A stretch of 47,263 nt of DNA from Phycisphaerae bacterium. GTDB lineage: Bacteria > Planctomycetota > Phycisphaerae > UBA1845. The notes under the pieces are model-generated. The model had not been told where the DNA came from. It searched no databases and saw only the letters and a list, made by a program, of their open reading frames with translations. Each line of letters starts with the position of its first letter. Within the stretch, counting starts at the first letter, position 1. The position numbers were made by a program, and so were the translations under genes. The stretch is from the NCBI GenBank assembly GCA_029260055.1, contig JAJDDX010000066.1:1-47263 (forward strand). Reading direction: 5' to 3'. This document shows positions 20,536 through 38,947 of this stretch, piece after piece.

Positions 20536-21339
20536 GTGCAGGAATCAACCAGCCCAAAACCCGAACGGTGGCGGCTCGGCGTCGTATCCTACCTTAACTC
20601 GCGGCCCCTGATAGCCGGGCTGGATCGCGATGAGACGCTCGAACTGACCTTCGCCGTGCCTTCGCGTCTGCCCGACATGCTGGACGACGGCACGGTCGAC
20701 GTAGCGCTCGTTCCGATCGTGGACCTGCTTCGGCCGGGCCGCGACTGGCAGATCGTCTCGGATGCCTGCATCGGCTGTGACGGCGAGACGCTGACCGTCC
20801 GTGTCTTCTCCCGAACGGCTCCGGAGTCGATCCGCACACTGCACGTCGACGGCGATTCGCACACCTCGGTCGTGCTGGCCACGATCATCTGGAAGGAGCT
20901 GTACGGCGTCGAGATCAACGTGGTGCCCTATTCAGGCACGCCGACCGACGACTGCGAGGCCGTCCTTCTGATCGGTGACAAAGTCGTCACGAACCGCCTG
21001 CTCGACTTCGAGATCGAGACCGATCTCGGCTCGGCCTGGAAGACACTGACGTCTCTGCCATTTGTCTTTGCGGTCTGGGCGGCGCCGCGCCGAATCGACA
21101 CGGCTGAGATCGCGGAACGTCTGTCGGCCGCACGTGATGCCGGCGTGAAGACAGCCTCGCTCATCGCCGCCGACTTCGGACCGGGACTCGGGTTCCCCGT
21201 GGCCCTGGCCACACGCTACCTCACGTCGCGGCTCAAGTTCACACTCGGGCAGCGCCAACGCGAGGGCATGAAGCTTTTTCTCGAACTCGCCGAGCGGCAT
21301 GGAATGGTCGCTGAGGGGCAGGAGTTGGTCTTCTCATGA
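20536..21339 (+). CDS. mqnA: Chorismate dehydratase MqnA (futalosine pathway)
   Basis: This 267-residue enzyme removes water from chorismate to give 3-enolpyruvyl-benzoate, the first step of the futalosine route to menaquinone. The start LGVVSYLNSRPLIAGL, the block PSRLPDMLDDGTVDVALVPI and the later LLIGDKVV and PFVFAVWAAP follow the family, which has a periplasmic-binding-protein-like fold but acts in the cytoplasm. GTG 20536 is favoured since GGAGG lies 4 nt upstream; GTG 20512 would add eight residues. It overlaps mqnC by 4 nt (ATGA). The other pathway genes (mqnB, mqnD, mqnE) are not in the window. Confidence 0.94.
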   Translation: MQESTSPKPERWRLGVVSYLNSRPLIAGLDRDETLELTFAVPSRLPDMLDDGTVDVALVPIVDLLRPGRDWQIVSDACIGCDGETLTVRVFSRTAPESIRTLHVDGDSHTSVVLATIIWKELYGVEINVVPYSGTPTDDCEAVLLIGDKVVTNRLLDFEIETDLGSAWKTLTSLPFVFAVWAAPRRIDTAEIAERLSAARDAGVKTASLIAADFGPGLGFPVALATRYLTSRLKFTLGQRQREGMKLFLELAERHGMVAEGQELVFS

Positions 21340-22481
21340 CGCCCGCATCCGCCGTGCCGGCTACGTCAGCGGCCCGTATCACCGACGACGAGGCGTTGTC
21401 GATGCTGAGGGATTGCAGCATCCATGAACTCGGCCGGCGCGCCCACGAGATCACGATGCGACTCCATCCGGAGCCCTACCGAACCTACGTTGTCGACCGC
21501 AACATCAACTACGCGAATTACTGCACCGCCAAGTGCATCTTCTGCGACTTCAAAGCGGATGTGCCGGGCGTCGACACGGGACGAAAGAACCTGCCGGACG
21601 GATACATCCTGTCGCACGAGGAGATCGCCGCGAAGATCAAGGAGCTGCTCGACATCGGCGGCACACAGATCCTGCTTCAGGGAGGCCTGGTCCCCGCTGA
21701 GTTGCTGCCGTTCGAGTGGTACGTCGACCTCATGCGTTTCATGAAGCGCGAGTTCCCGCGGATCCACGTGCATGCATTCAGTCCGCCCGAAATCCATGCG
21801 TTCCACCTTATGTTCGACATGAGCGTCCGGGACGTGCTACTGAGGCTCCAGGACGCCGGCCTCGACAGCATCCCCGGCGGCGGTGCGGAAATACTCGTCG
21901 ACCGGGTCCGCCGGAAGATTGCGCAAGGGAAAACCACTACCGACCAATACCTAGGGGTGATGCGCGAGGCCCATCGCATCGGCATGAGGACGAGCATCAC
22001 GATGATGTTCGGGCACATCGAGACGCTGGCTGAACGGATTGAGCATCTACGGCGAATTCGGGACCTTCAGGACGAAACCGGTGGGTTCACGGCCTTCATC
22101 GGCTGGACCTTTCAGCCCGGCGACACACCGCTAGGCCGGGTGAAGCAGCACGACGCCGACTCGGACGGAAGCCCGGACGGCAAGCACCTCGTCCTGGCGG
22201 ATTCCCACGCCTATCTGAAGATGGCGTCCCTGGCGCGCATCTACCTGGACAACGTGCCGAACATTCAGTCGAGTTGGGTCACGCAGGGTGCGAAGATAGG
22301 TCAACTCGCACTTTTTCACGGCGCCAACGACATGGGTTCGGTCATGATGGAAGAGAACGTCGTGTCAGCCGCAGGCACTACGTACCGGCTCACGGAGCAG
22401 GAATTGCGAGCCACAATCACGGATGCCGGCTGGGTCCCGCGCAAACGCAACTTCTACTACGAACTCATCGACAGCGACTAA
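21336..22481 (+). CDS. mqnC: Cyclic dehypoxanthine futalosine synthase MqnC (radical SAM)
   Basis: This 381-residue radical SAM enzyme cyclises dehypoxanthine futalosine in menaquinone synthesis. The 4Fe-4S cysteines are C63, C67 and C70 in NYCTAKCIFCDF. MqnC is preferred over MqnE because of LDSIPGGGAEILVDRVRR, the segment QDETGGFTAFIGWTFQPGDT and the C-terminal ANDMGSVMMEENVVSAAG. The length is normal. It overlaps mqnA by ATGA, so two non-consecutive steps of the pathway are translationally coupled. With the complex I operon 4 kb away, menaquinone is the likely quinone of this organism. Confidence 0.95.
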   Translation: MTPASAVPATSAARITDDEALSMLRDCSIHELGRRAHEITMRLHPEPYRTYVVDRNINYANYCTAKCIFCDFKADVPGVDTGRKNLPDGYILSHEEIAAKIKELLDIGGTQILLQGGLVPAELLPFEWYVDLMRFMKREFPRIHVHAFSPPEIHAFHLMFDMSVRDVLLRLQDAGLDSIPGGGAEILVDRVRRKIAQGKTTTDQYLGVMREAHRIGMRTSITMMFGHIETLAERIEHLRRIRDLQDETGGFTAFIGWTFQPGDTPLGRVKQHDADSDGSPDGKHLVLADSHAYLKMASLARIYLDNVPNIQSSWVTQGAKIGQLALFHGANDMGSVMMEENVVSAAGTTYRLTEQELRATITDAGWVPRKRNFYYELIDSD

Positions 22482-26476: not shown

Positions 26477-26917
26477 TCAGGCAGCGGGGTGAGCGGCGAC
26501 GCCCTGGGCGTCACGTAGCGAATCGAAGTCGGCCTGGTATTTGGCGAGGATGCCACCGACCACTTCGGCGGCCTGCGGTTCACACACGACGCGCTCGGCT
26601 GCGCGGCGATAGGTCGCCACGAGTTTCTCGTGGTCCGCAACGAGATGCGGCCAGAGATGGTCAAGCTGCTGATAGTGAAGGTGGGCTGTGTCCAGATCGC
26701 CGGTGCGCGGTCCGGGCACGCCGCCGAGTTGCAGCATGACGTCGACCAATCGGCCGCAATGCTGCCCGCTCTGGTCCACCATGCGCACGAGGAGGCGGCT
26801 TTCCGCGATGGCATCTTCCGATACGAACAAGGTCGACTCGACCAGGCGTATGGCAAGCCGCCGCTGCTCGACGGTCAGTAGCTCGTTCAGTACGTCCAAA
26901 ACCTCGGCTTGACTCAT
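26477..26917 (-). CDS. Small ferritin-like or four-helix protein at the end of the nuo operon
   Basis: This 146-residue protein is made almost wholly of four predicted helices: EQRRLAIRLVEST, VRMVDQSGQHCGRLVDVMLQ, LHYQQLDHLWPHLVADHEKL and AAEVVGGILAKYQADFDSL. The order resembles a ferritin-like bundle, with H52, E17, D95 and H96 among possible metal residues. The classical ExxH pairs are not intact, so metal binding is uncertain. It starts 2 nt after the nuoN stop, which puts it in the complex I transcript. I do not recognise a named family. A role in assembly or iron handling for the complex would be speculation based on position only. Confidence 0.6.
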   Translation of the reverse strand: MSQAEVLDVLNELLTVEQRRLAIRLVESTLFVSEDAIAESRLLVRMVDQSGQHCGRLVDVMLQLGGVPGPRTGDLDTAHLHYQQLDHLWPHLVADHEKLVATYRRAAERVVCEPQAAEVVGGILAKYQADFDSLRDAQGVAAHPAA

Positions 26918-26919
26918 AG

Positions 26920-28539
26920 CTAGGACCCACTGTCGGCCACGCGTGCCGAAGAGCTGTCAGAAGTATTCGATGCGACGGCCTGATACATGCCGCGGGAAAG
27001 TTGCTCGGCACTGGTCTTGAGCGGCTGAGCGAACACGAACAGAAGCAGGAGCGCCAGCGCACACAGATTCACGAGCGCGATTCCGCCGACAGGCGCCCGC
27101 ACAGCCGCCCGCTGGTCTTCCGCGAACACCATGCGGACGACGATCCGCAGGTAGAAGTAGAGGCTGATCAGCGTGTTGGCGACCGCGGCGATCACGAGGA
27201 ACCACCCCAGCGTCGAATCCAACCCGCCCAGCGCGACGAGGATCCACCACTTCCCGATGAAACCGGCAAACGGCGGAAGACCCACGAGCGACATCAGACA
27301 GATGATCATCGGAATAGCGAGCCACGGCGCCCGGCGCATGAGCCCGTTGAAGGCATCGAGCTTGTCACTGCCGCCGTCCCACACGACCAGTGCCGTGATC
27401 CCGAACGCGCCGAGGTTCATGAACATGTAGATGATGATGTATACCAGTAATGCCGTCAGGCCGGCGGTGTAGCCCGGGCTTCCGGCATACACGAACACCG
27501 CGGCTGCCATCATCATGTACCCTGCGTGAGCGATCGACGAATAGGCAAGCAGCCTCTTGACGCTCTCCTGCTTGTACGCCGAGAAGTTGCCGATCGTACA
27601 CGTTACAGCGGCCACGATGCCGATCACCCAGGCGACCGGTTCGAGGAACTGCATGTTCAACGGCGCCTCGACCGCGGCACAGAACGTCAGCGCGACTCGG
27701 GCGAGCAGAATCAGACCGGCTGCCTTGCTCGCCACGGAAAGCCAGGTGGTCACTTCCACTTTCGCGCCCTCGAACGCATCGGGGCACCAGAAGTGGAACG
27801 GTACGGCTGAAACCTTGAAGGCGATGCCGGCAAAGAACGCCAGAAGCCCCACGCTCAGCAGCACGGAACTCTCGCCCGTGTGGAACCCCATGGTCGCTAC
27901 GTACTGAGCAAGGTCCGCCACGTTCAGGCTGCCCACCAGGCCATACAGGAGGCTGATGCCATACAGCATGACCGCGGCGGAGACGGACCCGAACACCATA
28001 TACTTCAGCGCGGCTTCGGCGCCGGCCTTATCGCGTTTGTCGAACCCGACGATGGCGTAGCTCGGCAAGGAGGCTGTTTCGATCGCCACGACGATCAGCA
28101 GCAGGTTCAGCGTGCTGACCATCAGCGCCATGCCCAGCGCACTGCCCAGCAGCAGGATGAAGAACTCGGGCGCGTTTCGTTCGGTAGCGGCTGACCCCAT
28201 CCACCAGAGCCAGAAGATGCCTGCCAGGAACACCATGAGGATGATCTGGAAACCGGCGGACAGCGGATCGGCAATCAACATGCCACCGGCACCGCCCGGT
28301 GAGAGGCCGCTGATCGCGCCCGTCGAGACCACGCCCGCCACGCGCATCGCCAGGTAGAAGGTCACAATCACACCGACCGCCACGACGATGGCAATCGGAC
28401 GAGGGCCGCGACCGAACAGCAGCGGACAGGTTACGACCGCAAGCATCGTGCATATCAGCGCGATCATCGGCGAGAAGGCGAAGAGTTGCTCACCCACGTC
28501 GATGCCGGCCCAAGGATCTGTCTGTGCCAGGAAACTCAC
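26920..28539 (-). CDS. nuoN: NADH-quinone oxidoreductase subunit N
   Basis: This 539-residue antiporter-like membrane subunit of complex I has about 14 helices and forms part of the proton-pumping arm. Typical landmarks are the lysine-bearing KVSAVPFHFWCPDAFEGAK near the middle, YSSIAHAGYMMMA, and SLVGLPPFAGFIGKW in the C-terminal third. GTG 28539 starts MSFLAQTDPWAG. It comes after nuoM and is followed 2 nt later by the small helical gene, so it is not the end of the transcript. Length is somewhat above the 480-500 typical of the family, owing to the N-terminal segment and a Ser-rich tail. Confidence 0.96.
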   Translation of the reverse strand: MSFLAQTDPWAGIDVGEQLFAFSPMIALICTMLAVVTCPLLFGRGPRPIAIVVAVGVIVTFYLAMRVAGVVSTGAISGLSPGGAGGMLIADPLSAGFQIILMVFLAGIFWLWWMGSAATERNAPEFFILLLGSALGMALMVSTLNLLLIVVAIETASLPSYAIVGFDKRDKAGAEAALKYMVFGSVSAAVMLYGISLLYGLVGSLNVADLAQYVATMGFHTGESSVLLSVGLLAFFAGIAFKVSAVPFHFWCPDAFEGAKVEVTTWLSVASKAAGLILLARVALTFCAAVEAPLNMQFLEPVAWVIGIVAAVTCTIGNFSAYKQESVKRLLAYSSIAHAGYMMMAAAVFVYAGSPGYTAGLTALLVYIIIYMFMNLGAFGITALVVWDGGSDKLDAFNGLMRRAPWLAIPMIICLMSLVGLPPFAGFIGKWWILVALGGLDSTLGWFLVIAAVANTLISLYFYLRIVVRMVFAEDQRAAVRAPVGGIALVNLCALALLLLFVFAQPLKTSAEQLSRGMYQAVASNTSDSSSARVADSGS

Positions 28540-28596
28540 TTAGATCGCCTTACCGTGCGATGAACACCAAGACGCAGCCGCTATCGGCTGCGCGGG

Positions 28597-30255
28597 TCAG
28601 ATCATCGCGTTGATCGTATCCGTCACGCCCGCCAGCAGCAGGTCGAGCGTGCCGTTCGTAAAGTTGAACACGGTCTGCATCGGGAGCACACCCAGCGCGA
28701 TGCAGAGAATAGCCATGGGCACGAGAATGAATATCTCACGCCCCGACGCGTCGGGAAAACCGCGGTACTCCTCACGCTCGTTACCGAGGTAGACACGGCG
28801 AATCAGCCAGAGGATGTAGCCGGCTGTCAGGATCACGCCGGCGGCCGCCAGGATCGCCATCGGGTAGGCCCAGGTGTACTTCGAGCCCGCGTCGAACGTG
28901 CCCAGCAGCACCCACACCTCGCCAATGAACCCGCACAAACCGGGCAAGCCCAACGACGCAAAGAAGCCGATCGTCGCCATCGTGCCGTATTTCGGCATGG
29001 TCAGCCACAATCCACCGAACCGGTTGATCTCACGATGGTGGGCACGATCGTAAATCACACCAACCAGGAAGAAGCACATGGGTGATGAGATTCCGTGAGC
29101 GATCATCTGGAACATCGCCCCCTGGAAGCCGGCCGGCGTCATGACCGCGATGCCGAGCAACACGTAACCCATGTGAGACACGGAGCTATATGCGACGAGC
29201 TTCTTGAAGTCGGTTTGCGCCATCGCGCACAGCGCACCATACAAGATGCTCACCACGCCGACCGTAGCCAGCAAGAATGCCCAATACTCTCCGCCGAGCG
29301 GGAAGATCGGATAGCAGAGCCGCAGGAAGCCGTAGCCGCCCATCTTCAGCAGCACGCCGGCCAGGATCATACTGATCGGCGTCGGCGCCTCGACGTGTGC
29401 ATCGGGCAACCACGTGTGGAACGGCACCGAGGGCAGTTTGATCGCGAAACCGATGAACAGGAACATGAACATGATCGGGGCGAAGCGCATCCCGAGGAAG
29501 AGCGTCGCCTTCGCTGAGAAGTACTTCTGGATTACATCGTTCGTGGCCAGTTCGATCAGGTCGAACGTGCCGTGCGTAATCGCCACCGGAGCGCCGCTAT
29601 CCGTGACGCGATAGCCGCTGGGGACTGAGCCGCCCGCTGCCTCGATCGCCGCCCCGCCGTAGAAGTACATCGCCACCAGTGCGACGAGCATCAGCACCGA
29701 GCCAGCCAGCGTAAAGAGGAAGAACTTGATGGCGGCGTATTCCTTCCGCGGTCCGCCCCAGACGCCGATCAGGAAGTACATGGGAAGCAGCATGACTTCC
29801 CAGAAGATGTAGAAGAGGAAGAAGTCGAGCGACACGAACACGCCCAGCATGCCGGTTTCGAGCAGTAGGAACAGGAAGAAGTAGCCGCGAATCCCCTTGT
29901 TGATCTTCCAGGTGTCGAAGTTCCAGCTCGCCAGGCACGAGAGGAACGACACGAGCGTCGTCAGGATGATCAGCGGGAAGCCGAGCCCGTCGATACCCAG
30001 GAAGTACTCGATCTCGAAGCCCTCTCCCGTGATCCACGGGAGCCGAATGACGTGCTGCAACTTGCCGTAACTCGTACCGAAGATCGACTCGGCCGCCTCT
30101 GCGCCGCCGAGGAAGGTCGGGAACAGCAGGAGCGAGACCAGCAGCGTCGCCAGACTGGCAAGCACCGCCACCACCCGCACCTGAGCTCTCGGTACGAATA
30201 GGCAGAGCAGGCCTCCCAGTGCCGGCAAGAACACAATTAGCGTCAGCAGGTCCAT
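28597..30255 (-). CDS. nuoM: NADH-quinone oxidoreductase subunit M
   Basis: This 552-residue antiporter-like subunit of the complex I membrane arm has the conserved FFLFYIFWEVMLLPMYFLIG with the functional glutamate, KLPSVPFHTWLPDAHVEAPT with its lysine neighbourhood, and AYSSVSHMGYVLLG. The length is a little over the E. coli size of about 509, mostly from the N-terminal region. ATG 30255 starts MDLLTLIVFLPALGG. It sits 24 nt after nuoL and 57 nt before nuoN in the usual L-M-N order. It probably carries one of the three antiporter-like proton channels. Confidence 0.97.
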   Translation of the reverse strand: MDLLTLIVFLPALGGLLCLFVPRAQVRVVAVLASLATLLVSLLLFPTFLGGAEAAESIFGTSYGKLQHVIRLPWITGEGFEIEYFLGIDGLGFPLIILTTLVSFLSCLASWNFDTWKINKGIRGYFFLFLLLETGMLGVFVSLDFFLFYIFWEVMLLPMYFLIGVWGGPRKEYAAIKFFLFTLAGSVLMLVALVAMYFYGGAAIEAAGGSVPSGYRVTDSGAPVAITHGTFDLIELATNDVIQKYFSAKATLFLGMRFAPIMFMFLFIGFAIKLPSVPFHTWLPDAHVEAPTPISMILAGVLLKMGGYGFLRLCYPIFPLGGEYWAFLLATVGVVSILYGALCAMAQTDFKKLVAYSSVSHMGYVLLGIAVMTPAGFQGAMFQMIAHGISSPMCFFLVGVIYDRAHHREINRFGGLWLTMPKYGTMATIGFFASLGLPGLCGFIGEVWVLLGTFDAGSKYTWAYPMAILAAAGVILTAGYILWLIRRVYLGNEREEYRGFPDASGREIFILVPMAILCIALGVLPMQTVFNFTNGTLDLLLAGVTDTINAMI

Positions 30256-30279
30256 GGCAACGTCGTCTTTATCAAGAAC

Positions 30280-32661
30280 CTAAGGGGCTACGGAACTTGC
30301 CACCGTAGCGGCACCGGAGCCCGAATCCATCCCGAAAGCCAACACACAAACCACCACCACCGTCGCGACGGCCGTGGCAAACAACACGTAGTTTCGTATC
30401 CGTCCGGTCTGCGGCGCACGCGCGACCCCGCCGATATCGATGGACGTTTTCGCGATGCCGTTGACGATCCCGTCGATGCCATGGTTGTCGATGACCAGGC
30501 CGGAGAATGCCGCGATCCGTTCCGTGACAGCCGCCGAAAGGTTGACGAGCAGATCGATGAAGTAGGTGTCGAAGAAGCGGGCGATGTGCGCCACGAGCAC
30601 GCAACCCTTGACCCACACTACGTCATACACTTCGTCGAAGTAATACTTGTTCCAAAGGATCGTATGGATCGGCAGGAAGACCTTCTTGAGTTGCTCAGCC
30701 AGGCCGAGACCATTGCGATAGATCGCGATGGCCACGATGAACCCAACGAGGAACGCCCCACCGACATACCAGCGAAGCCAGCCATGGGCTGCGTGTATCG
30801 CCTCGGTTCCAAGCTCTCCGTCGGTCGCCAGGACCATGGCCGCGCTCGTGGCCGAATGGCTCGCGTCCTCGATCAGCGGCCTGAAGAGGAAGTAGCTCGA
30901 GACGAAGGTCCCGATCGCCAGTACGACGAGCGGCACGTACATCAGCGGTGTTTCGTGGGCGTGGTCGTACACGTGCTGGTCACGCGGCTTGCCCATGAAG
31001 GTCATCCACCAACAGCGCATCATGTAGAACGGCGTGACGTAGGCCGTGAAGATCGCGAGATAGAACATCCAGCTAGGCAGCTTCTTCATGTCCTTGAAGA
31101 TCGCCGCGCGATCCGCGCCGCCGTGGCTGTCGTGGGTTGATTGCGCGCCGTGTGCCGCTGCAGCCGGCTGATGTTCGTCGTGATGCTCGGCCTGGGTGCG
31201 ATCGGCGACCAGCATGGCGCGTGAACCTTCCGGTTCCGGTGCGGCGGTGTGACCGGCGCCGTGGGCTTCGCCGTGTTCCTCATGCTTGCTGATGTCGTCC
31301 CACTCGAAGGCACGGACGTAGGCGACGGCCAGAATCTCGTCCTTGCTGAAGAAGCCGCCGAGGCCGATCTTCCTGCCCGCGATCTCCGCGCCGGGAATGG
31401 GAATGCCCGTGCCAGCGATCGCCAGCACGCCGACCAGGAACGTGATACCCGTGACAGGCATCTTCTTCATCAGCCCGCCCATCTTCCGCATGTCCTGCTC
31501 GTGGTGGCACCCCTCGATCACCTGGCCCGAGCACAGGAAGAGCATGGCTTTGAAGAAGGCGTGCGTGATCAGGTGGAATAGAGCGGCAATCCACGCACCG
31601 CAACCCATGGCGAAGATCATGTAGCCGAGTTGCGAAAGCGTCGAATAGGCGAGGCACTTCTTAATGTCGACCTGGACGATCGCGATCAGCGCCATCAATG
31701 TCAGCGTCAGGCAACCGATCAGCGCGACGAACGCCAGCGCCTCGGGGGTCATCAGTCTGTACACCCGTGCGACCAGGTAGACGCCGGCTGCGACCATGGT
31801 GGCGGCGTGGATCAACGCACTAACCGGCGTAGGGCCGGCCATCGCATCGGGCAGCCAAACGTGCAGCGGGAACTGGGCGCTCTTGCCCATCGCGCCGCAG
31901 AACAGGCCGACGCCCATGATCGTCGCCAGCGACCAGCCGAATAGCGTAAAGTGACTCGCGAAGATGCCCGTGCCGGCTGCGTATTGCTGAGCGAAGACCG
32001 TGGCGGCCTCATCCAGATCGAGCGTGCCGAGGTGCATGAAGACCAGCATCAGGCCGATCAGGAAACCGAAGTCGCCGACGCGGTTCGTGATGAATGCCTT
32101 CATCGCCGCAGCCGACGCGAAGCCCTTGTCGAAGTAGTAGCCGATCAGCAGGTAGCTACAGAGCCCGACCAGTTCCCAGAAGATGAACAGGAAGAGCAGG
32201 CTGGAACTGAGCACGAGGCCGAGCATGCTGAAGCCGAACAGTGACAGATAGGCGAAGAAGCGGTGGTACTTGCTCTTACCGGCGACCTCGTCGCTGTGGC
32301 CTTTCATGTAGCCGATGCTGAAGACGAAAATCAGAAACGCGATGAGCGTCACCATGAAGAACATGGCGACGGTAAGTGAGTCGAGCTTGACGCCGACCGT
32401 GACGGGGATCGTTCCGATATACGCCCACGTACCTCGGTATGCGCCGGCCGTCAGTGCCGCTCTCCCGCCTTCGGTCTCACCGAGCCAGCCGATCAGCACA
32501 ATGGTCGCCAGCACCAGCGGTACACCCATGCCGAGAACGACCGCCACCCAACCGGCCGCCGGCTTGCCAAGCTTGGGCCCGGCGAAGACGAGCAGCCAAA
32601 AGCTCACCAGCGGCGAGAGCACGCCGCAAGCAAGCAGGATTTCGTACGTATACTGTCCCAT
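30280..32661 (-). CDS. nuoL: NADH-quinone oxidoreductase subunit L with His-rich insert
   Basis: This 793-residue distal antiporter-like subunit of complex I is long compared with about 610-650 in most bacteria. The core is normal: FFAYLSLFGFSMLGLVLSSS, FIFWELVGLCSYLLIGYYFD, GKSAQFPLHVWLPDAMAGPT and STLSQLGYMIFAMG. Residues about 460-520 (DNA 31105-31290) are an added loop with ten histidines and many Ala/Glu, flanked by HEEHGEAHGAGH and DSHGGADRA. The C-terminal lateral helix and an extra terminal helix are present. ATG 32661 is used; two TTG codons precede it. The insert is the notable oddity. Confidence 0.95.
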   Translation of the reverse strand: MGQYTYEILLACGVLSPLVSFWLLVFAGPKLGKPAAGWVAVVLGMGVPLVLATIVLIGWLGETEGGRAALTAGAYRGTWAYIGTIPVTVGVKLDSLTVAMFFMVTLIAFLIFVFSIGYMKGHSDEVAGKSKYHRFFAYLSLFGFSMLGLVLSSSLLFLFIFWELVGLCSYLLIGYYFDKGFASAAAMKAFITNRVGDFGFLIGLMLVFMHLGTLDLDEAATVFAQQYAAGTGIFASHFTLFGWSLATIMGVGLFCGAMGKSAQFPLHVWLPDAMAGPTPVSALIHAATMVAAGVYLVARVYRLMTPEALAFVALIGCLTLTLMALIAIVQVDIKKCLAYSTLSQLGYMIFAMGCGAWIAALFHLITHAFFKAMLFLCSGQVIEGCHHEQDMRKMGGLMKKMPVTGITFLVGVLAIAGTGIPIPGAEIAGRKIGLGGFFSKDEILAVAYVRAFEWDDISKHEEHGEAHGAGHTAAPEPEGSRAMLVADRTQAEHHDEHQPAAAAHGAQSTHDSHGGADRAAIFKDMKKLPSWMFYLAIFTAYVTPFYMMRCWWMTFMGKPRDQHVYDHAHETPLMYVPLVVLAIGTFVSSYFLFRPLIEDASHSATSAAMVLATDGELGTEAIHAAHGWLRWYVGGAFLVGFIVAIAIYRNGLGLAEQLKKVFLPIHTILWNKYYFDEVYDVVWVKGCVLVAHIARFFDTYFIDLLVNLSAAVTERIAAFSGLVIDNHGIDGIVNGIAKTSIDIGGVARAPQTGRIRNYVLFATAVATVVVVCVLAFGMDSGSGAATVASSVAP

Positions 32662-32710
32662 CAACAACCGTTACCCGACCGCCGTAGCGGGCTGGCCATC
32701 CTAGTTACGA

Positions 32711-33025
32711 TCAACCCTGCAACTGTCGAGCCGAATCGACATCCACCGTCGCGAGGTTCTTGTACACGTTGATGCAGATACCCACCGCGATGGCCGCTTC
32801 CGCCGCAGCCAGCACGATGATAAACAGCGCCATGATCTGCCCGTCAAAGAGGCCGCCCTCTCTGAAGCGATCAAACGCCACTAAGTTCACGTTCGCGGCG
32901 TTGAGCAACAACTCGACGCCGATCAGAATCCCGATCGCGTTACGCTTGGTCATGATGGTGAACAGGCCCGTACACAACAGGACAGCCGCCACGACGAGGT
33001 AATGCGTTAAACCGATCGAAAGCAC
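32711..33025 (-). CDS. nuoK: NADH-quinone oxidoreductase subunit K
   Basis: This 104-residue three-helix membrane subunit of complex I has the conserved TKRNAIGILIGVELLLNAANVNLVAF with the glutamate important for proton transfer in helix 2, and a second conserved region GQIMALFIIVLAAAEAAIAVG with its own glutamate in helix 3. The length is standard. GTG 33025 lies 4 nt after the nuoJ stop. Sequence and position in the J-K-L order leave little doubt about identity. Confidence 0.97.
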   Translation of the reverse strand: MLSIGLTHYLVVAAVLLCTGLFTIMTKRNAIGILIGVELLLNAANVNLVAFDRFREGGLFDGQIMALFIIVLAAAEAAIAVGICINVYKNLATVDVDSARQLQG

Positions 33026-33029
33026 GTAA

Positions 33030-33626
33030 CTACTTCTCCTGCCGCGCCATATGCGCGGCTCCGACCATGACGATCATCAGCACGACGCCGGCCATCTCGA
33101 ACGGCACCAGATACTCGGTGATCAGTGCGCGACCGATCGTCGCGATCGACGTACCTGCCGTGGCTTCGTCCACGCTCTCCCACGCCGCTCGCCCGAGCAA
33201 GGTGCAAAGCGAAAGGAACAGGCCGACACACACAACTGTCGCTGCTACCAATTCCAGCTTCGGCGCCTCGAACCGGATCCACGGCGACTTGCTCGTCAGC
33301 ATCACACCGAAAACGAGCAGAATCAGCGTACCGCCGGCGTAGACGATCAACTGAATCGCACCGATGAAGTTAGCCGCCAGCAGGAAGTACATCACCGCCA
33401 CCGACGCCAGCGCCGTGAAAAGCCAAACCGCCATGCGAACGATGTTCTGCGCGATGCACACACCGAGTGCCGAGACGACCACGCCGCCGGCGACGATGTA
33501 GAACAGCACCGCCTCGAGCACCGAGCCGGGAGCGGCTGCCCCGGTGGCGTCGGACGGCGCACCGAAAGCGCTCGATGCCGTCAGCAGCACGAGCAAGCTC
33601 ATGAGTATGAATCGAGCTTCTTTCAT
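33030..33626 (-). CDS. nuoJ: NADH-quinone oxidoreductase subunit J
   Basis: This 198-residue five-helix membrane subunit of complex I has the conserved helix-3 region FIGAIQLIVYAGGTLILLVFGVML, which in other complexes switches between alpha and pi-bulge forms. Its N-terminus is unusual: MKEARFILMSLLVLLTASSAFGAP looks like a cleavable signal peptide ending at SSAFGA. ATG 33626 is chosen; an upstream TTG at 33644 adds six residues. It follows nuoH by 36 nt and precedes nuoK by 4 nt. NuoI, which normally separates H and J, is absent from this position. Confidence 0.93.
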   Translation of the reverse strand: MKEARFILMSLLVLLTASSAFGAPSDATGAAAPGSVLEAVLFYIVAGGVVVSALGVCIAQNIVRMAVWLFTALASVAVMYFLLAANFIGAIQLIVYAGGTLILLVFGVMLTSKSPWIRFEAPKLELVAATVVCVGLFLSLCTLLGRAAWESVDEATAGTSIATIGRALITEYLVPFEMAGVVLMIVMVGAAHMARQEK

Positions 33627-33662
33627 AACCGTAAGCCGAACCAAACCGCTATCGCGGCTCTA

Positions 33663-35240
33663 TTACGAGCCCGGAAGCGGATCAATCACCAAGTTTCCGA
33701 CCAACCGCCGCCGGTGATAGAACCCATACCCGGCGATGGCCACGAAGCCGAATCCGAACGCGAGCCCGACGATCCCCAGCACTTTGCTGACGATCGAGGC
33801 GATGACGTCCCACGTCGCGTTACCCGATTCGGACGCCCAAACCCACAAGGTCGTTCCAAAGAGCAGGACCATCGTCAGCGGCAACAGCACCTGCACGCAG
33901 GCGTAAAGCACCTGGTCGAGCCGAATCCGCGGGAGCGTCCAGCGGACCCAGAGCTGCAGGAACAGGAAGAAGACGCACTTGAGAATGAACCAGATCGGTC
34001 CGCTGAACAGGATGCCCTTGAGGCCCTTAGCCCAGATCGATTCGCCCAATCCAGCACCCCAGTCCGACGGTATCGGCGAGTTCCATCCGCCGAGGAACAT
34101 GATCGTTGCAAGACCGCCGACGACGAACATGGCTGCGTACTCGGCGAAGAAGAACAGCGCCCACCTGAAGCCGGAGTATTCCGTCAGGAAGCCCGCCACC
34201 AGCTCGCTTTCCGCCTCGGGCAGATCGAACGGGGCACGCTTGCAACTCGCCAGCGACGCGATGAAGTAGGTCACGAACGCCACGAACGCGAACGGGTTCC
34301 TGAAGGCCAGCCAACTGAACCATCCGTCGGCCTGCACCTCGCCGATATACTTGAGGCTCAGCGACCCGACACAGACGACCGGCACGAGCAGCGCCATACC
34401 CATCGGGATTTCGTAGGCCACCATCTGGCACGCCTCACGCATCCCGCCGTAAACGCTCCACTTGTTGTTCGAGGCCCACCCGCCCAGGATGACGGACATC
34501 ACCTCGATGCCGAGCATGGCAAGGATGAACACGAGCGCTACATCGACCTCGCGGAAGATGTAGGTCACGCCGAACGGCAACGCCACGAAGGCAAGGGCCG
34601 AAGGGATAATGGCGAAGTAAGGTGCCGCTCTGAAGAGGATCGAGTCCGCGGCGTCCGGAATGAAGTCCTCTTTCAGCACCAGCTTGATGCCGTCAGCCGG
34701 CGATTGCGCCCAGCCGTGCCAACCGCCAACGCGCATCGGGCCAAGCCGGGACTGAATGCGGCCGGCTACCTTGCGTTCCCACCAGATGACATAGACCGGG
34801 ACGATATTGAACCAGGCGAAGATCGCACCGAACGCGATCATGTCGCGCGTGAAGCCGAACTGCACCGGCCACAGCAGATACGAAAGTAGTCCGGGCGACT
34901 GCCCCTCCACGGCTGCGTCACCGGCGAGCAGCGTTCCGATCACCGACGGAGGCAAGCCCCAAGTCGACGGCGAGAAGTAGCCGAACGCGTTCGGATTCGC
35001 CGCCCCGACCTCGGCCGCCCGTTCGAGCACGGCGGTATCCACGTAGGAGAACAGTAGAGCATGAGCCCAGACGAGGAAGCAGCTCGCGACCACCGCACTG
35101 AGGAGAATCGAACCCGGGAAGCGCGTCACGATGGGCGTGGCGATGGCATAGATACCCTTCGCCAGTGCCACGATGAAGCTCGAAACGAACCCATGGCTAG
35201 GCTCTGGTTTCTCTCGCCATGGAACCGCGAACTGACTCAC
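33663..35240 (-). CDS. nuoH: NADH-quinone oxidoreductase subunit H, extended
   Basis: This 525-residue subunit forms the quinone-chamber part of the membrane arm. The conserved core begins near residue 155 with WWERKVAGRIQSRLGPMRVG and includes DGIKLVLKEDFIP, NKWSVYGGMREACQMVAYEIP and KRAPFDLPEAESELVAGFLTEYSG, all typical. It is about 200 residues longer than the usual 325-360. The N-terminal extension of roughly 130 residues carries at least two extra hydrophobic segments, and the C-terminus has an additional helix before HRRRLVGNLV. GTG 35240 is the start. No frame break is visible, so the extension is genuinely in frame. Confidence 0.94.
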   Translation of the reverse strand: MSQFAVPWREKPEPSHGFVSSFIVALAKGIYAIATPIVTRFPGSILLSAVVASCFLVWAHALLFSYVDTAVLERAAEVGAANPNAFGYFSPSTWGLPPSVIGTLLAGDAAVEGQSPGLLSYLLWPVQFGFTRDMIAFGAIFAWFNIVPVYVIWWERKVAGRIQSRLGPMRVGGWHGWAQSPADGIKLVLKEDFIPDAADSILFRAAPYFAIIPSALAFVALPFGVTYIFREVDVALVFILAMLGIEVMSVILGGWASNNKWSVYGGMREACQMVAYEIPMGMALLVPVVCVGSLSLKYIGEVQADGWFSWLAFRNPFAFVAFVTYFIASLASCKRAPFDLPEAESELVAGFLTEYSGFRWALFFFAEYAAMFVVGGLATIMFLGGWNSPIPSDWGAGLGESIWAKGLKGILFSGPIWFILKCVFFLFLQLWVRWTLPRIRLDQVLYACVQVLLPLTMVLLFGTTLWVWASESGNATWDVIASIVSKVLGIVGLAFGFGFVAIAGYGFYHRRRLVGNLVIDPLPGS

Positions 35241-35289
35241 GTCGACGCTCCCGTTGGCTCGCTCAATGGCGAGCCCGATTCAATAAGAC

Positions 35290-36489
35290 CTATCGATCCA
35301 CCTCACCCAGCACGACATCGAGGCTGCCGATGATGGCCGGTACGTCCGCCAGCAGGATGTCCCTGCACGTATGCGACGTAATCGCGAGGTTGCAGAAGCT
35401 CGGGCCGCGCGCCTTGACGCGTGCCGGAATGGCCGAGCCGTCGCCCTGCACATAGAAACCCAATTGCCCGCGCGGGTTCTCGATCTCGACGTAGACCTCG
35501 TCCGCGGGCAGCTTGATACCTTTGACCTTCTTCGCCTCGATGGGCCCCTCTTCGAGCCGCTTCAGCGCCTGCCGCATGATGCGCACCGACTGGGTCATTT
35601 CGAGGATACGCACGTAGTAACGGCTCCAGCAGTCACCGGTCACGACGCCGCGGGGCACGCCGTCGATCCCACCGTCCTGCCCGATCGGAATGTCGAAGTC
35701 GTAGTCCTCGTATCCGTCGTAGGGCGTCACCTTCCGCAGGTCCCACCGCACGCCGGTCGCCCTCAGTGCCGCGCCGGTCAGACCGAACGCGAGCGCGTCC
35801 TCGGCTGTAATGACGCCCACGGTGGCGGTGCGTTTTACGAAAATGTGGTTGAAGCTGAGCAGGTTGTTGTAGTCGACGATCTTCGGCTCGAAGAAGTCGA
35901 GGAACTCCTCACACCGCTCGACCCAACCGTCGGGCAGGTCGTCATGGACGCCGCCGACGGTGATATAGCTGTAGGTCAGCCGCGCCCCGCAGGCCGCCTC
36001 GAACAGGTCGAGGATCATTTCCCGCTCGCGGAAGCACCAGGTAAACGGCGTGAACGCGCCCATGTCCAGGCCGTAGGTGCCCAGCGCGACGAGATGCGAG
36101 GCAATCCGGTTCAATTCGGCCATGATGACGCGGATGCGCTTCGCTCGCTCGGGCACCTCGACACCGCAAAGTCGCTCGATCGCGATGGCAAAGGCCTGGT
36201 TGTTGTTCATCCCCGCGATGTAGTCCATACGGTCGGTGTAGGGGATGTACTGGTACGGCTGCACGCTCTCACCGATCTTCTCGGCGCATCGGTGTAAGTA
36301 GCCTATGTGCGGCTCCGCTTCGAGCACCATCTCACCATCGGTGCGCAGGACGATCCTCAACACACCGTGCGTCGACGGGTGCTGCGGGCCCATGTTGACC
36401 AGCAGTTCTTCCGTCTGCAGGTCGCCCTGCTCGACTCGATCGTGATCGAGAAGCAGGTCGGGCGTGGATTCGAAGGTCGTTTCTGCCAT
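35290..36489 (-). CDS. nuoD: NADH-quinone oxidoreductase subunit D
   Basis: This 399-residue peripheral subunit sits next to the quinone site of complex I and descends from the large subunit of NiFe hydrogenases. It has NMGPQHPSTHGVLRIVLRTDGE, the strongly conserved HxxxHG turn, YLHRCAEKIGE, RNMD-equivalent TDRMDYIAGMNNNQAFAIAIE and C-terminal GDGSAIPARVKARGPSFCNL. The metal-binding cysteines of hydrogenases are gone, as expected. ATG 36489 is preferred to the TTG at 36504. It follows nuoC by 22 nt. Length and motifs are normal and separate, so this is not a fused NuoCD. Confidence 0.97.
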   Translation of the reverse strand: MAETTFESTPDLLLDHDRVEQGDLQTEELLVNMGPQHPSTHGVLRIVLRTDGEMVLEAEPHIGYLHRCAEKIGESVQPYQYIPYTDRMDYIAGMNNNQAFAIAIERLCGVEVPERAKRIRVIMAELNRIASHLVALGTYGLDMGAFTPFTWCFREREMILDLFEAACGARLTYSYITVGGVHDDLPDGWVERCEEFLDFFEPKIVDYNNLLSFNHIFVKRTATVGVITAEDALAFGLTGAALRATGVRWDLRKVTPYDGYEDYDFDIPIGQDGGIDGVPRGVVTGDCWSRYYVRILEMTQSVRIMRQALKRLEEGPIEAKKVKGIKLPADEVYVEIENPRGQLGFYVQGDGSAIPARVKARGPSFCNLAITSHTCRDILLADVPAIIGSLDVVLGEVDR

Positions 36490-36511
36490 GTCCGTTGTCG
36501 GCAACTCCCGT

Positions 36512-37045
36512 CTAGTGCCGCGGGTTCGTCAGCCCGTACTCCGTTGTAGCCGGTATCCCGTGGTACTCGAGCGGGAACTCGTAATCCTTGCGAAGCGGAT
36601 GCCCGACCCAGTCGTCAGGGCAGAGGATCCGCCGAAGATCGGGGTGATCGCTGAAGCGAATCCCCATCAGATCGAACGCCTCGCGTTCGTGCCAGTCAGC
36701 CGCCCGCCACACGCCCGCGAGCGACGGAATCACCGGATCGTCACGGTCGGTCACAACCCGTAGCGCGAAGCTCCGCGTGGTGGTCAGTAGATCGCCCCGG
36801 TTCTCGGTGGGCACGTGCATCATGTCATACGCGCAGGCCAGCTTGTTGTCGGCCAGCAAGTCGATCGAACTGATCGACCGCAGCAGGTTGAACCGCAGGC
36901 TCGGATCGTCCCGCAGGAACGTAGCCACCTCGACCAACGACTCCGCCTTGATCTGGACGTAAGGCCGCGCGGCGTCCAGCACCGTCGCCTCGATCGCGTC
37001 GGGGAAGCGGGCTTTAATCAGGTTACAGATGTCCTCGGGTATCAC
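36512..37045 (-). CDS. nuoC: NADH-quinone oxidoreductase subunit C
   Basis: This 177-residue peripheral subunit supports NuoB and NuoD. The C-terminal signature [20 protein letters not shown] then [20 protein letters not shown] is intact. GTG 37045 is chosen because it lies 17 nt after the nuoB stop and starts [16 protein letters not shown], the usual beginning of the domain; an in-frame ATG-like extension to 37180 would overlap nuoB by 118 nt and looks non-coding. It is separate from nuoD, as in most bacteria outside the Enterobacteria. Confidence 0.95.
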
Positions 37046-37062
37046 GCCTGCGAATCCTCGCC

Positions 37063-37581
37063 CTAGGCCAGGGCCGTCTTTTTCAGTTTCGTCATTGGGC
37101 TCTTGGCTCGCGTCTGCCGACGAATCTTGTCCTGCAGCCGCATGAGCCCTTCCAGCAACGCTTCGGGACGCGGTGGGCAACCCGGTACGTATATATCAAC
37201 GGGCACGATCAAATCGACGCCCTTGACCACGTGGTATCCATGTTTGAAGTAAGGCCCGCCGCCGATCGTGCATGCGCCCATCGCCATGACGTATTTCGGT
37301 TCGGGCATCTGGTTGTAGAGACGCTTGACGCGGCTGGCCATCTTGTACGTCACCGTACCGGCGACGATCATGAGGTCCGACTGCCGCGGCGTGGCACGGA
37401 ACGCACCCGCGCCGAACCGGTCCATATCGAACCGCGAGGCACCAGCCGCCATCATCTCGATGGCACAGCACGCCAGGCCGAAGGTCATCGGCCAGATGCT
37501 GTTGCTGCGGCCCCAATTGATCGCCCAGTCAAGCGACGTGACGATCAGGCCTTCCTCAAACCGGTTTTCGATCCAACTCAT
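37063..37581 (-). CDS. nuoB: NADH-quinone oxidoreductase subunit B
   Basis: This 172-residue subunit carries the terminal iron-sulphur cluster N2 that reduces quinone. The tandem cysteines are in [11 protein letters not shown], with further ligands in [10 protein letters not shown] and [15 protein letters not shown], so all four N2 ligands are present. ATG 37581 has GGAGA about 8 nt upstream. The C-terminus ends in a short basic tail ([13 protein letters not shown]). It lies 64 nt after nuoA and 17 nt before nuoC. Confidence 0.97.
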
Positions 37582-37645
37582 CGAATCTCTCCGGGCCCGT
37601 CGATCGAGCACCGAATGCCAAACGTACACCTTCCGCGACGGCTAT

Positions 37646-38143
37646 CTAAGCCGCCGACTCCGCCGAGTCCAGCACGGACCGCTTCTCCTGCGCCGAGGCG
37701 TCGCGGACCCAGTTCAGATAGCCCGACTTCCACTCGTAAAGGAACGGGATGGCGATCAGGGCGAAGAAGACCGCGAACGGCCAGAAAGCGGACGCCCCCA
37801 TCTCTTTGAACACGACAGCCCAGGGCCAGAGCAACGCCACCTCGACATCGAAGACGATGAAGACCAGCGCTACCGTATAGAACCGCAGGTCATACTGGAC
37901 CCAGCCGTCGCCGATGGCCGGCTCGCCGCACTCGTAGGGCGTACCCTTCTCGGGGTGCGGCATCGACGGGCGAACGATGCGCCCGACGCTGAGGCCCGCG
38001 AACGCCAGAGCGAAGCCGCCGAAGGTGAACAGCAAGACGCCGAACACCAACTCGGTGTTGGTGTTCGCATGGGCGGCCCTCTCCGTCTGCATCAGGGCGG
38101 AACCGACTACTGCGTTAACGCTGTCAACCAATACGGAATACAC
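37646..38143 (-). CDS. nuoA: NADH-quinone oxidoreductase subunit A
   Basis: This 165-residue three-helix membrane subunit has the conserved loop KGTPYECGEPAIGDGWVQYD, including the cysteine of the quinone-cavity loop, and FIVFDVEVALLWPWAVVF. An N-terminal segment of about 30 residues precedes the first helix, longer than usual, so a later start cannot be excluded. GTG 38143 has GAGG 8 nt upstream and follows nuoI by 13 nt. It is normally the first gene of a nuo operon; here it is second. Confidence 0.95.
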   Translation of the reverse strand: MYSVLVDSVNAVVGSALMQTERAAHANTNTELVFGVLLFTFGGFALAFAGLSVGRIVRPSMPHPEKGTPYECGEPAIGDGWVQYDLRFYTVALVFIVFDVEVALLWPWAVVFKEMGASAFWPFAVFFALIAIPFLYEWKSGYLNWVRDASAQEKRSVLDSAESAA

Positions 38144-38156
38144 GTCCGATCCTCAA

Positions 38157-38816
38157 TCACTCTTTGGTAGCGGGCTCTTTCTTCTTCGCCGGCTCCGACG
38201 GCTTCAGCGCGTTGACCATGGCCTCGCGCCGTTGATCCGTCTGATTCGCCAGTTTGTCGTCCGAATGGGTGAACTCCAGCCACTCGTTCTTCGTCGCCGT
38301 CGCCCACTCAGCGGGTTTCTTCTTTTGCATCCAGATCGGCTGCGGCGTTTGCAGTCCGCGCGTCGCCAGTTCCGTAAACTCGACGATCATGTCCTCACGC
38401 GTGTAACCGGACATGTCGTGTACGTTGCCCATGTGGATACAGTCGGTCGGGCACGGGTCACAGCAAAGCCCGCAGAACATGCACTTCGCGTAGTCGATGG
38501 CGTAGCGCGTCATCGCTCCGCCGACGGCAATGCCGCTGGCTTTGTCGACCTTGCGCGGTCCGGATTTATCGATGTAGATGCAGTCGACCGGGCAGGCCTT
38601 CGCACACATATCGCACGCGATGCACTTCTCGATTTCATAGAAGTGGAAACCGCGATAGCGCGGCTGAAGCGCGGGCGCCACGTCGGGGTACTGGAGCGTC
38701 ACCGTCTTGGCGAAACAGTACTTCAGCGACAACCGCATGCCGACGAGAATCGAATAGACCGTCTGCCAGATGTTGTGGAAGTAATCGCGAACGGGATTGG
38801 CGCCGTTACCGTGCAT
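38157..38816 (-). CDS. nuoI: NADH-quinone oxidoreductase subunit I (ferredoxin-type)
   Basis: This 219-residue peripheral subunit carries clusters N6a and N6b. Both 4Fe-4S motifs are complete: CIACDMCAKACPVDC and CMFCGLCCDPCPTDC, each CxxCxxCxxxC. The N-terminus YFHNIWQTVYSILVGMRLSL is the membrane-facing amphipathic helix of the family. ATG 38816 is used, although GTG 38921 or TTG 38873 could extend it with a basic segment and no candidate has a good ribosome site. The C-terminal tail is Lys/Pro-rich. It is the first gene of the operon, ahead of nuoA, instead of lying between nuoH and nuoJ. Confidence 0.93.
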   Translation of the reverse strand: MHGNGANPVRDYFHNIWQTVYSILVGMRLSLKYCFAKTVTLQYPDVAPALQPRYRGFHFYEIEKCIACDMCAKACPVDCIYIDKSGPRKVDKASGIAVGGAMTRYAIDYAKCMFCGLCCDPCPTDCIHMGNVHDMSGYTREDMIVEFTELATRGLQTPQPIWMQKKKPAEWATATKNEWLEFTHSDDKLANQTDQRREAMVNALKPSEPAKKKEPATKE

Positions 38817-38947
38817 TGATTCGCGTAGCCGCCGGTTGTAAGCCAGCCTCCGTGCCTTGTACCGGGCGGTCAACGATCTCCACGTCCCGGCTGTAACGTT
38901 CGTAAGCTCCGCGCTAACCACGGCTTTCGTCGTAGTGCGCGGGCCGG

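Follow-up and report, generated by a model that had tools for sequence, protein, structure and literature searches.

The NuoL subunit encoded by a NuoEFG-less complex I cluster of a Phycisphaerae bacterium carries a histidine-rich, acidic insert in the loop between transmembrane helices TM12 and TM13. Inserts at this site occur throughout one order of the Phycisphaerae and contain a short motif that recurs between families of the order. This recurrent motif is what is new here beyond a vague low-complexity insert. The insert appears to be dispensable on an evolutionary scale, long-standing and conserved in composition, and the best and most parsimonious account takes it as an accessory arm in the periplasm. 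In the fuller version that is tentatively favored, at a little under an even chance, a disordered arm on the periplasmic TM12–TM13 loop combines a docking motif with histidine-rich and acidic linkers and serves as an accessory of the NuoEFG-less complex I.

The window analyzed here is the whole 47,263-nucleotide stretch of contig JAJDDX010000066.1. The features on which the argument rests are listed below in window coordinates.

26920–38921, minus strand: nuo cluster in the order I-A-B-C-D-H-J-K-L-M-N, lacking nuoE, nuoF and nuoG (tblastn, Pfam, NCBIfam and sequence).
30280–32667, minus strand: nuoL, 795 aa, NADH-quinone oxidoreductase subunit L of the NuoEFG-less cluster.
31306–31458, minus strand: TM12, a broken helix, aa 404–454 (AF2 helices at aa 404–418 and 437–454), bearing S441-K442-D443.
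31075–31305, minus strand: His-rich, acidic, Cys-free insert in the TM12–TM13 loop, aa 455–531 (pLDDT below 50 at aa 469–518).
31219–31284, minus strand: His-rich arm 1, aa 462–483, four histidines (from sequence).
31198–31218, minus strand: short motif AMLVADR, aa 484–490; the order consensus is approximately [VFI]-x-L-[AV]-S-[DYF].
31123–31197, minus strand: His-rich arm 2, aa 491–515, six histidines (from sequence).
30997–31074, minus strand: TM13, aa 532–557 (AF2).

The protein scores above two NCBIfam cut-offs, PRK06590 (588.3 bits; cut-off 556) and TIGR01974 (571.3 bits; cut-off 407.5), and the best Foldseek matches of its model are NuoL/ND5/NdhF chains (TMt 0.76–0.85 for the first five). 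Residues E165, K262, K373 and K442 are among the invariant columns of a 38-sequence alignment. K442 is aligned with E. coli K399, and the triplet S441-K442-D443 with E. coli S398-K399-D400; E165 and K262 are presumably the TM5 glutamate and TM7 lysine of NuoL. With E165, K262 and K442 invariant in 38 sequences, the NuoL core looks intact. Relative to ordinary NuoLs, aa 455–531 are extra sequence, about 77 residues with 10 histidines and no cysteine. An earlier note on this DNA had described an in-frame span with ten histidines between conserved helices, midway through a membrane protein. The span at 31105–31290 (aa 460–521) indeed holds exactly ten, at aa 462, 465, 469, 473, 495, 496, 499, 506, 512 and 515, with TM12 before it and TM13 after it; it lies mid-protein as to the chain, but the loop itself is outside the membrane. 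Ten is the maximum over all 62-residue windows of NuoL and, at the 2.6% histidine found outside aa 455–531, the binomial chance of at least ten in 62 residues is about 5e-6.

Topology and the literature indicate that the insert-bearing loop probably faces the periplasm. The long amphipathic helix that links TM15 to TM16 of NuoL is on the N (cytoplasmic) side (PMC3274701), and counting back from it places the end of TM12 and the start of TM13 on the periplasmic side. In the order, the insert loop has a mean of 5.3 Lys/Arg in 79 aa (median), compared with 4.2 in the TM11–TM12 loop (median 17 aa) and 2.1 in the TM13–TM14 loop (median 16 aa), and a mean of 12.0 Asp+Glu; both the few Lys/Arg for its size and its acidity agree with a periplasmic placement. 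In a review, NuoL is named as the place where the entire complex lets its protons out, and the TM12 proton is released straight into the periplasm; a single NuoL exit is contested by others, according to the same review (PMC10212512). The loop directly follows TM12 with its K399-equivalent, the exit site of that review. The proposal that the insert lies near a channel mouth is therefore supported by topology, and the insert probably adjoins the presumed proton exit of NuoL.

The earlier note had also called for the loop to be modeled and its side decided. The side is given by topology, as above, and the modeled loop is predicted to be disordered in the AF2 monomer. This run used 38 aligned sequences (window and related-locus proteins only) and yielded a mean pLDDT of 80.2 for NuoL, with values below 50 at aa 469–518 and partly low-confidence helices at aa 456–465 and 514–524. 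The motif has no regular structure in the NuoL monomer model. The idea that the motif docks on its own NuoL chain was considered and rejected, as the AF2 monomer contains no such docking. A rhomboid-like protease site at the motif was considered as well.

The insert is an order-wide feature. A search of 114 genomes of the order gave matches in 85 at E ≤ 1e-100 and none at that threshold in 29; one of these 29 (G038), with a weaker match (E 1e-90), was added to the sample. Loop length was counted as the residues between SKDEIL-type and YMMR-type landmarks, and two outsiders passed by the filter (L151, 34 aa; L157, 23 aa) were removed by hand. Removal of identical sequences left 86 distinct loops, of which L212 is truncated where its contig stops, so that 85 are assessable. 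The loop measures at least 55 aa in 82 of these 85, among them three (L033, L045 and L220) that are cut on the C-terminal side yet already long, and the complete long loops range from 59 to 212 aa. Short loops within the order are those of G038 (29 aa), G324 (35 aa) and G310 (39 aa). Among 114 other NuoLs, E. coli included, the loop is 16–40 aa in 107, and the median of all is 29. The seven longer ones include the 83-aa loop, with 5 histidines, of a Phycisphaerae MAG from outside the order (G067; L047/L143). The remaining six have smaller extensions at this site whose sequence looks unrelated: 76 aa with 1 histidine in an uncultured proteobacterium (L061) and 51–52 aa in Pseudoxanthomonas (L053, L055, L060, L069 and L075).

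As the outcome that would refute its idea, the earlier note named a strain-specific low-complexity expansion with no conserved histidines. The 82 of 85 distinct loops rule out strain specificity; the second half of that description holds, since no single histidine position is conserved. Presence throughout the class and phylum is likewise not supported. The searches at those levels, in which loci were the best-scoring matches only, gave a match in 59 of the 120 genomes of the class and in 93 of the 149 of the phylum, and the outside-order loci among these matches have loops of 23–40 aa, except for G067. The insert is also not a feature of every complex I of the organism, because the second NuoL of the genome has an ordinary loop. 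In a FastTree phylogeny of 135 NuoLs, built without gap-rich columns and hence without the insert, the three short-loop members of the order fall at separate places among long-loop ones in the listed parts of the tree and look like losses. A support of 0.999 belongs to a wider node of this tree that also contains other class members. The insert would have been gained in the common ancestor of one Phycisphaerae order.

What has been kept in the insert since then is chiefly its composition. Across 71 non-redundant inserts, a set that takes in the outside-order L047, histidine accounts for 9.7% of residues versus 3.0% in the rest of NuoL, alanine for 17.9%, glycine for 13.1%, Asp+Glu for 14.7% and cysteine for 0.0%; histidine reaches at least 5% in 68 of the 71 (the exceptions are L040, L042 and L141). 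The dipeptide HG is strongly enriched (160 vs 67). A base-composition artifact is ruled out by a frame control: in 83 order inserts with flanks, histidine amounts to 7.4% in the coding frame and 1.4–5.5% in the other five frames, so its richness is no by-product of base composition. No histidine column is conserved among the order inserts. Retention was measured in identity-scored alignments of 19 independent pairs of closely related inserts, counted from both sides. Histidine was kept in 180 of 272 cases (0.66) versus 1208 of 2368 (0.51) for other residues and was ahead in 15 of the 19 pairs. This signal is modest, since alanine (0.62) and glycine (0.59) come close and partner-shuffled controls (histidine 0.34, alanine 0.45, glycine 0.39) reveal a part played by alignment bias. 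A BLOSUM62 version over 31 overlapping pairs gave a histidine retention of 0.79, with a matrix that favors histidine matches. Histidine richness is conserved although histidine positions are not.

The motif was first noticed by eye, as a string recurring in inserts that otherwise resist alignment. A profile of width 7, learned de novo with 30 starts from the 36 non-redundant inserts of a single family (f1), reached a log-likelihood of 272, whereas 40 shuffled sets, given 10 starts each, averaged 78.6 ± 4.1 and never exceeded 88.0; its consensus is V/F/A - R/M/Q - L - A/V - S/A - D/F/G - P/Q/S. In families outside the training set, 16 of 32 inserts pass at p ≤ 0.05 against their own shuffles, where 1.6 are expected (8/14 in f8, 5/11 in f4 and 3/7 in f2/5/6), and the other 16 lack a significant motif. 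Passing inserts include 9 of the 15 held-out inserts fetched after the by-eye sighting; the other 17 had been seen earlier. The mean score over the 32 is 4.53 forward and −1.67 reversed, with forward higher in 26. Furthermore, none of 400 column-permuted profiles attains this mean, and singly, 13 of the 32 inserts beat the permuted profiles. Histidine is scarce in and just before the motif: in 47 motif-bearing inserts, it stands at 0–9% from −7 to −1 and at zero inside the motif, the latter partly by construction, compared with 11–19% at 18 of 25 positions beyond −8 and +6. Among the other subunits of the window's nuo cluster, the profile scores at most 8.9 bits versus 15.4 for NuoL, which belongs to the training set.

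At short distance, the motif has no clear advantage in conservation over its surroundings. Between close relatives, retention is 0.63 in the motif versus 0.57 elsewhere in the insert (31 overlapping pairs), and the mean similarity percentile of the motif is 0.46 (13 pairs). Cross-family local alignments cover the motif in 0.55 of cases, only slightly above the 0.48 of random placement (960 pairs). The favored reading is weakened by these results, by the 16 of 32 held-out inserts in which the motif is not significant, by the tandem repeats in some inserts and by the three short-loop lineages. The earlier suggestion that the insert might dock a partner is aided by a conserved motif, but the partner itself was not found.

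These observations can be joined in one tentative scheme. In the ancestor of the order, an arm would have been grafted next to the site where protons are presumed to leave, with two flexible His/Asp/Glu-rich linkers holding a short, beta-strand-like motif. The motif would most likely dock the arm at the periplasmic face, either on a partner protein or on one of the complex's own periplasmic beta-hairpins. The linkers, whose composition is kept and sequence is not, might provide reach together with a weak, many-site proton- or metal-binding surface. Such an arm would be an accessory of the NuoEFG-less complex I, outside the pumping core. The proton route out of complex I is debated, one leading model sending all pumped protons via NuoL, and the short-loop members of the order, together with an arm-free NuoL in the same genome, offer a comparative system for whether extramembrane elements shape proton release at all. 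The conserved motif makes the docking hypothesis testable.

The likeliest of the alternatives, though itself unlikely, is that a permissive TM12–TM13 site took in a low-complexity insert that has since drifted as a tolerated spacer with no function of its own. The wide range of complete long loops, the three short loops inside the order, the other insertions at this site (L061 and the five from Pseudoxanthomonas) and the motif's unremarkable retention at short distance all suit this explanation. So do tandem repeats, which are present in at least 12 of 83 inserts and include the AATCCAA heptamers of L042. A mere spacer would sit poorly with the excess retention of histidine in 15 of 19 pairs, with at least 5% histidine in 68 of 71 inserts that together lack cysteine, and with the recovery of the motif across families. 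Separately, NPKS/NPQS strings were observed in the inserts of L042, L134, L141 and L216; these are in-frame heptamer-like tandem repeats, or strings like their translation, and are a sign that short repeats are tolerated in the insert.

That the His/Asp/Glu arms act as an antenna or buffer, gathering and releasing protons at the periplasmic exit of NuoL, is improbable. Composition conserved without positions fits a buffer, the loop comes directly after the TM12 that carries the K399-equivalent, and NuoL has been proposed as the only proton exit (PMC10212512). However, most other sampled NuoLs lack the insert and their complexes are taken to pump regardless, the loop is short in three lineages of the order, and a near-surface buffer is not obviously rate-limiting.

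About as improbable is an arm whose histidines hold periplasmic Zn, Cu, Ni or Fe, either as a store or to shield the proton exit from inhibitory metal. Such a role could draw on the roughly 10% histidine plus Asp/Glu of the inserts and on spacings H-x3-H (z 3.5) and H-x5-H (z 4.4), both above shuffles. However, H-x-H is depleted (21 vs 45.5 ± 5.8 in shuffles; z −4.2), HH is without enrichment (34 vs 45.4 ± 6.1 in shuffles), and no histidine position is conserved; the H-x-H depletion does not favor a classical tight chelator. The His-rich loops of ZnuA, PA4063 and ZIP transporters have an H-x-H-rich pattern. These loops are described as flexible and extracytoplasmic or inter-helix, as here, but the depletion of H-x-H sets the NuoL insert apart from them, and the enriched H-x-H or HH of a classical chelating loop is not seen in the insert. 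A precedent is periplasmic PA4063, where disordered His-rich loops contribute to zinc binding (PMC8561739). Least probable is a selected regulatory switch at a single proton exit, in which the conserved strand would dock reversibly on a partner or on the beta-hairpins that NuoL/NuoM expose to the periplasm. The histidines on either side, by taking up protons or metal, would set whether the arm covers or leaves the NuoL exit; if true, it would make pumping sensitive to periplasmic pH or metal.

The accessory arm favored here has a partial parallel in Paracoccus denitrificans. Its ND5 likewise has a flexible periplasmic insertion (PMC11522691; PDB 8qby), with 44 disordered residues of very low AlphaFold confidence and several His and Glu in the aligned part of the region, and is the nearest published analogue found. 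The Paracoccus insertion lies in the TM14–TM15 loop rather than the TM12–TM13 loop, and the section that describes it mentions no motif, unlike the insert here. A His-rich, length-variable loop is also found between TM13 and TM14 of many other NuoLs (e.g. Neisseriales, Burkholderiales and Sulfuritalea; L070, L078 and L110), with at least 6 histidines in 43 of 120 NuoLs outside the long-loop set, counted over all taxa together, and a maximum of 21. By topology, this neighboring loop is cytoplasmic and the TM12–TM13 insert periplasmic; in the order's long-loop set the neighboring loop remains small, with medians of 16 aa and 4 histidines and at most 6 histidines. Among the open-access papers listed in the search and consulted, no description of this TM12–TM13 insert was found.

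The complex that would carry the arm is defined by its cluster. With E. coli subunits as queries, tblastn matches B, CD, H, I, K, L, M and N in the window and finds no match there for NuoE, F or G; nuoJ was called by Pfam and NCBIfam, and nuoA by sequence. The cluster thus holds nuoA–D and nuoH–N, 11 subunits, and nuoE/F/G are absent from it. This A–D plus H–N set is shared with the 11-subunit complex I-like enzyme of Desulfitobacterium and cyanobacterial NDH-1 (PMC11238625); in contrast to that type, the window cluster has nuoI first, an insert in NuoL and a ferritin-like gene after nuoN. The full I-A-B-C-D-H-J-K-L-M-N order recurs in 8 of 16 related nuoL regions (7 of the order plus G067), the other 8 containing only an H–N, J–N, K–M or L–N part, some with several kb in front. 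E. coli NuoE, F and G have no match at E 1e-5 in any of the 16 regions. On C498, the fetched part of the genome's other cluster contains nuoF and nuoG, and the NuoL of that cluster has an ordinary loop without the insert. A class genome survey reports that nuoF/nuoG annotations are missing in most Phycisphaerales, where alternative complex III occurs (PMC11266412).

Directly 3ʹ of nuoN lies a gene for a 146-aa protein (26477–26917, minus strand), which has a homologue in 12 of the 16 fetched related regions and none in L233, L236, L238 and L239 or beside the second cluster (L225). AF2 predicts a four-helix bundle (pLDDT 88.8) that most closely resembles bacterioferritins and a Dps-like protein, with a best E of 7.9e-4; an 8-sequence alignment has no invariant Glu or His. 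The protein is possibly an unrecognized accessory of this complex I. It was not retained as a periplasmic partner, since inspection by eye shows no obvious signal peptide.

Other subunits of the cluster are also extended. NuoH (33663–35240, minus strand) has 525 aa, of which the NADHdh domain covers only aa 139–461. The NuoH match spans about 1.4–1.5 kb in those clusters of the order that hold it, compared with 1.1 and 0.95 kb in L235 and L238, which belong to the class outside the order; judged by these lengths, the NuoH extensions may be order-specific too. NuoJ (33030–33644, minus strand) has a hydrophobic N-terminal extension of about 40–57 residues ahead of the family domain. Elsewhere in the window, the gene at 21336–22481 (plus strand) matches MqnC with 435.6 bits (cut-off 428.1), which places a gene of the futalosine route to menaquinone close to the nuo cluster.
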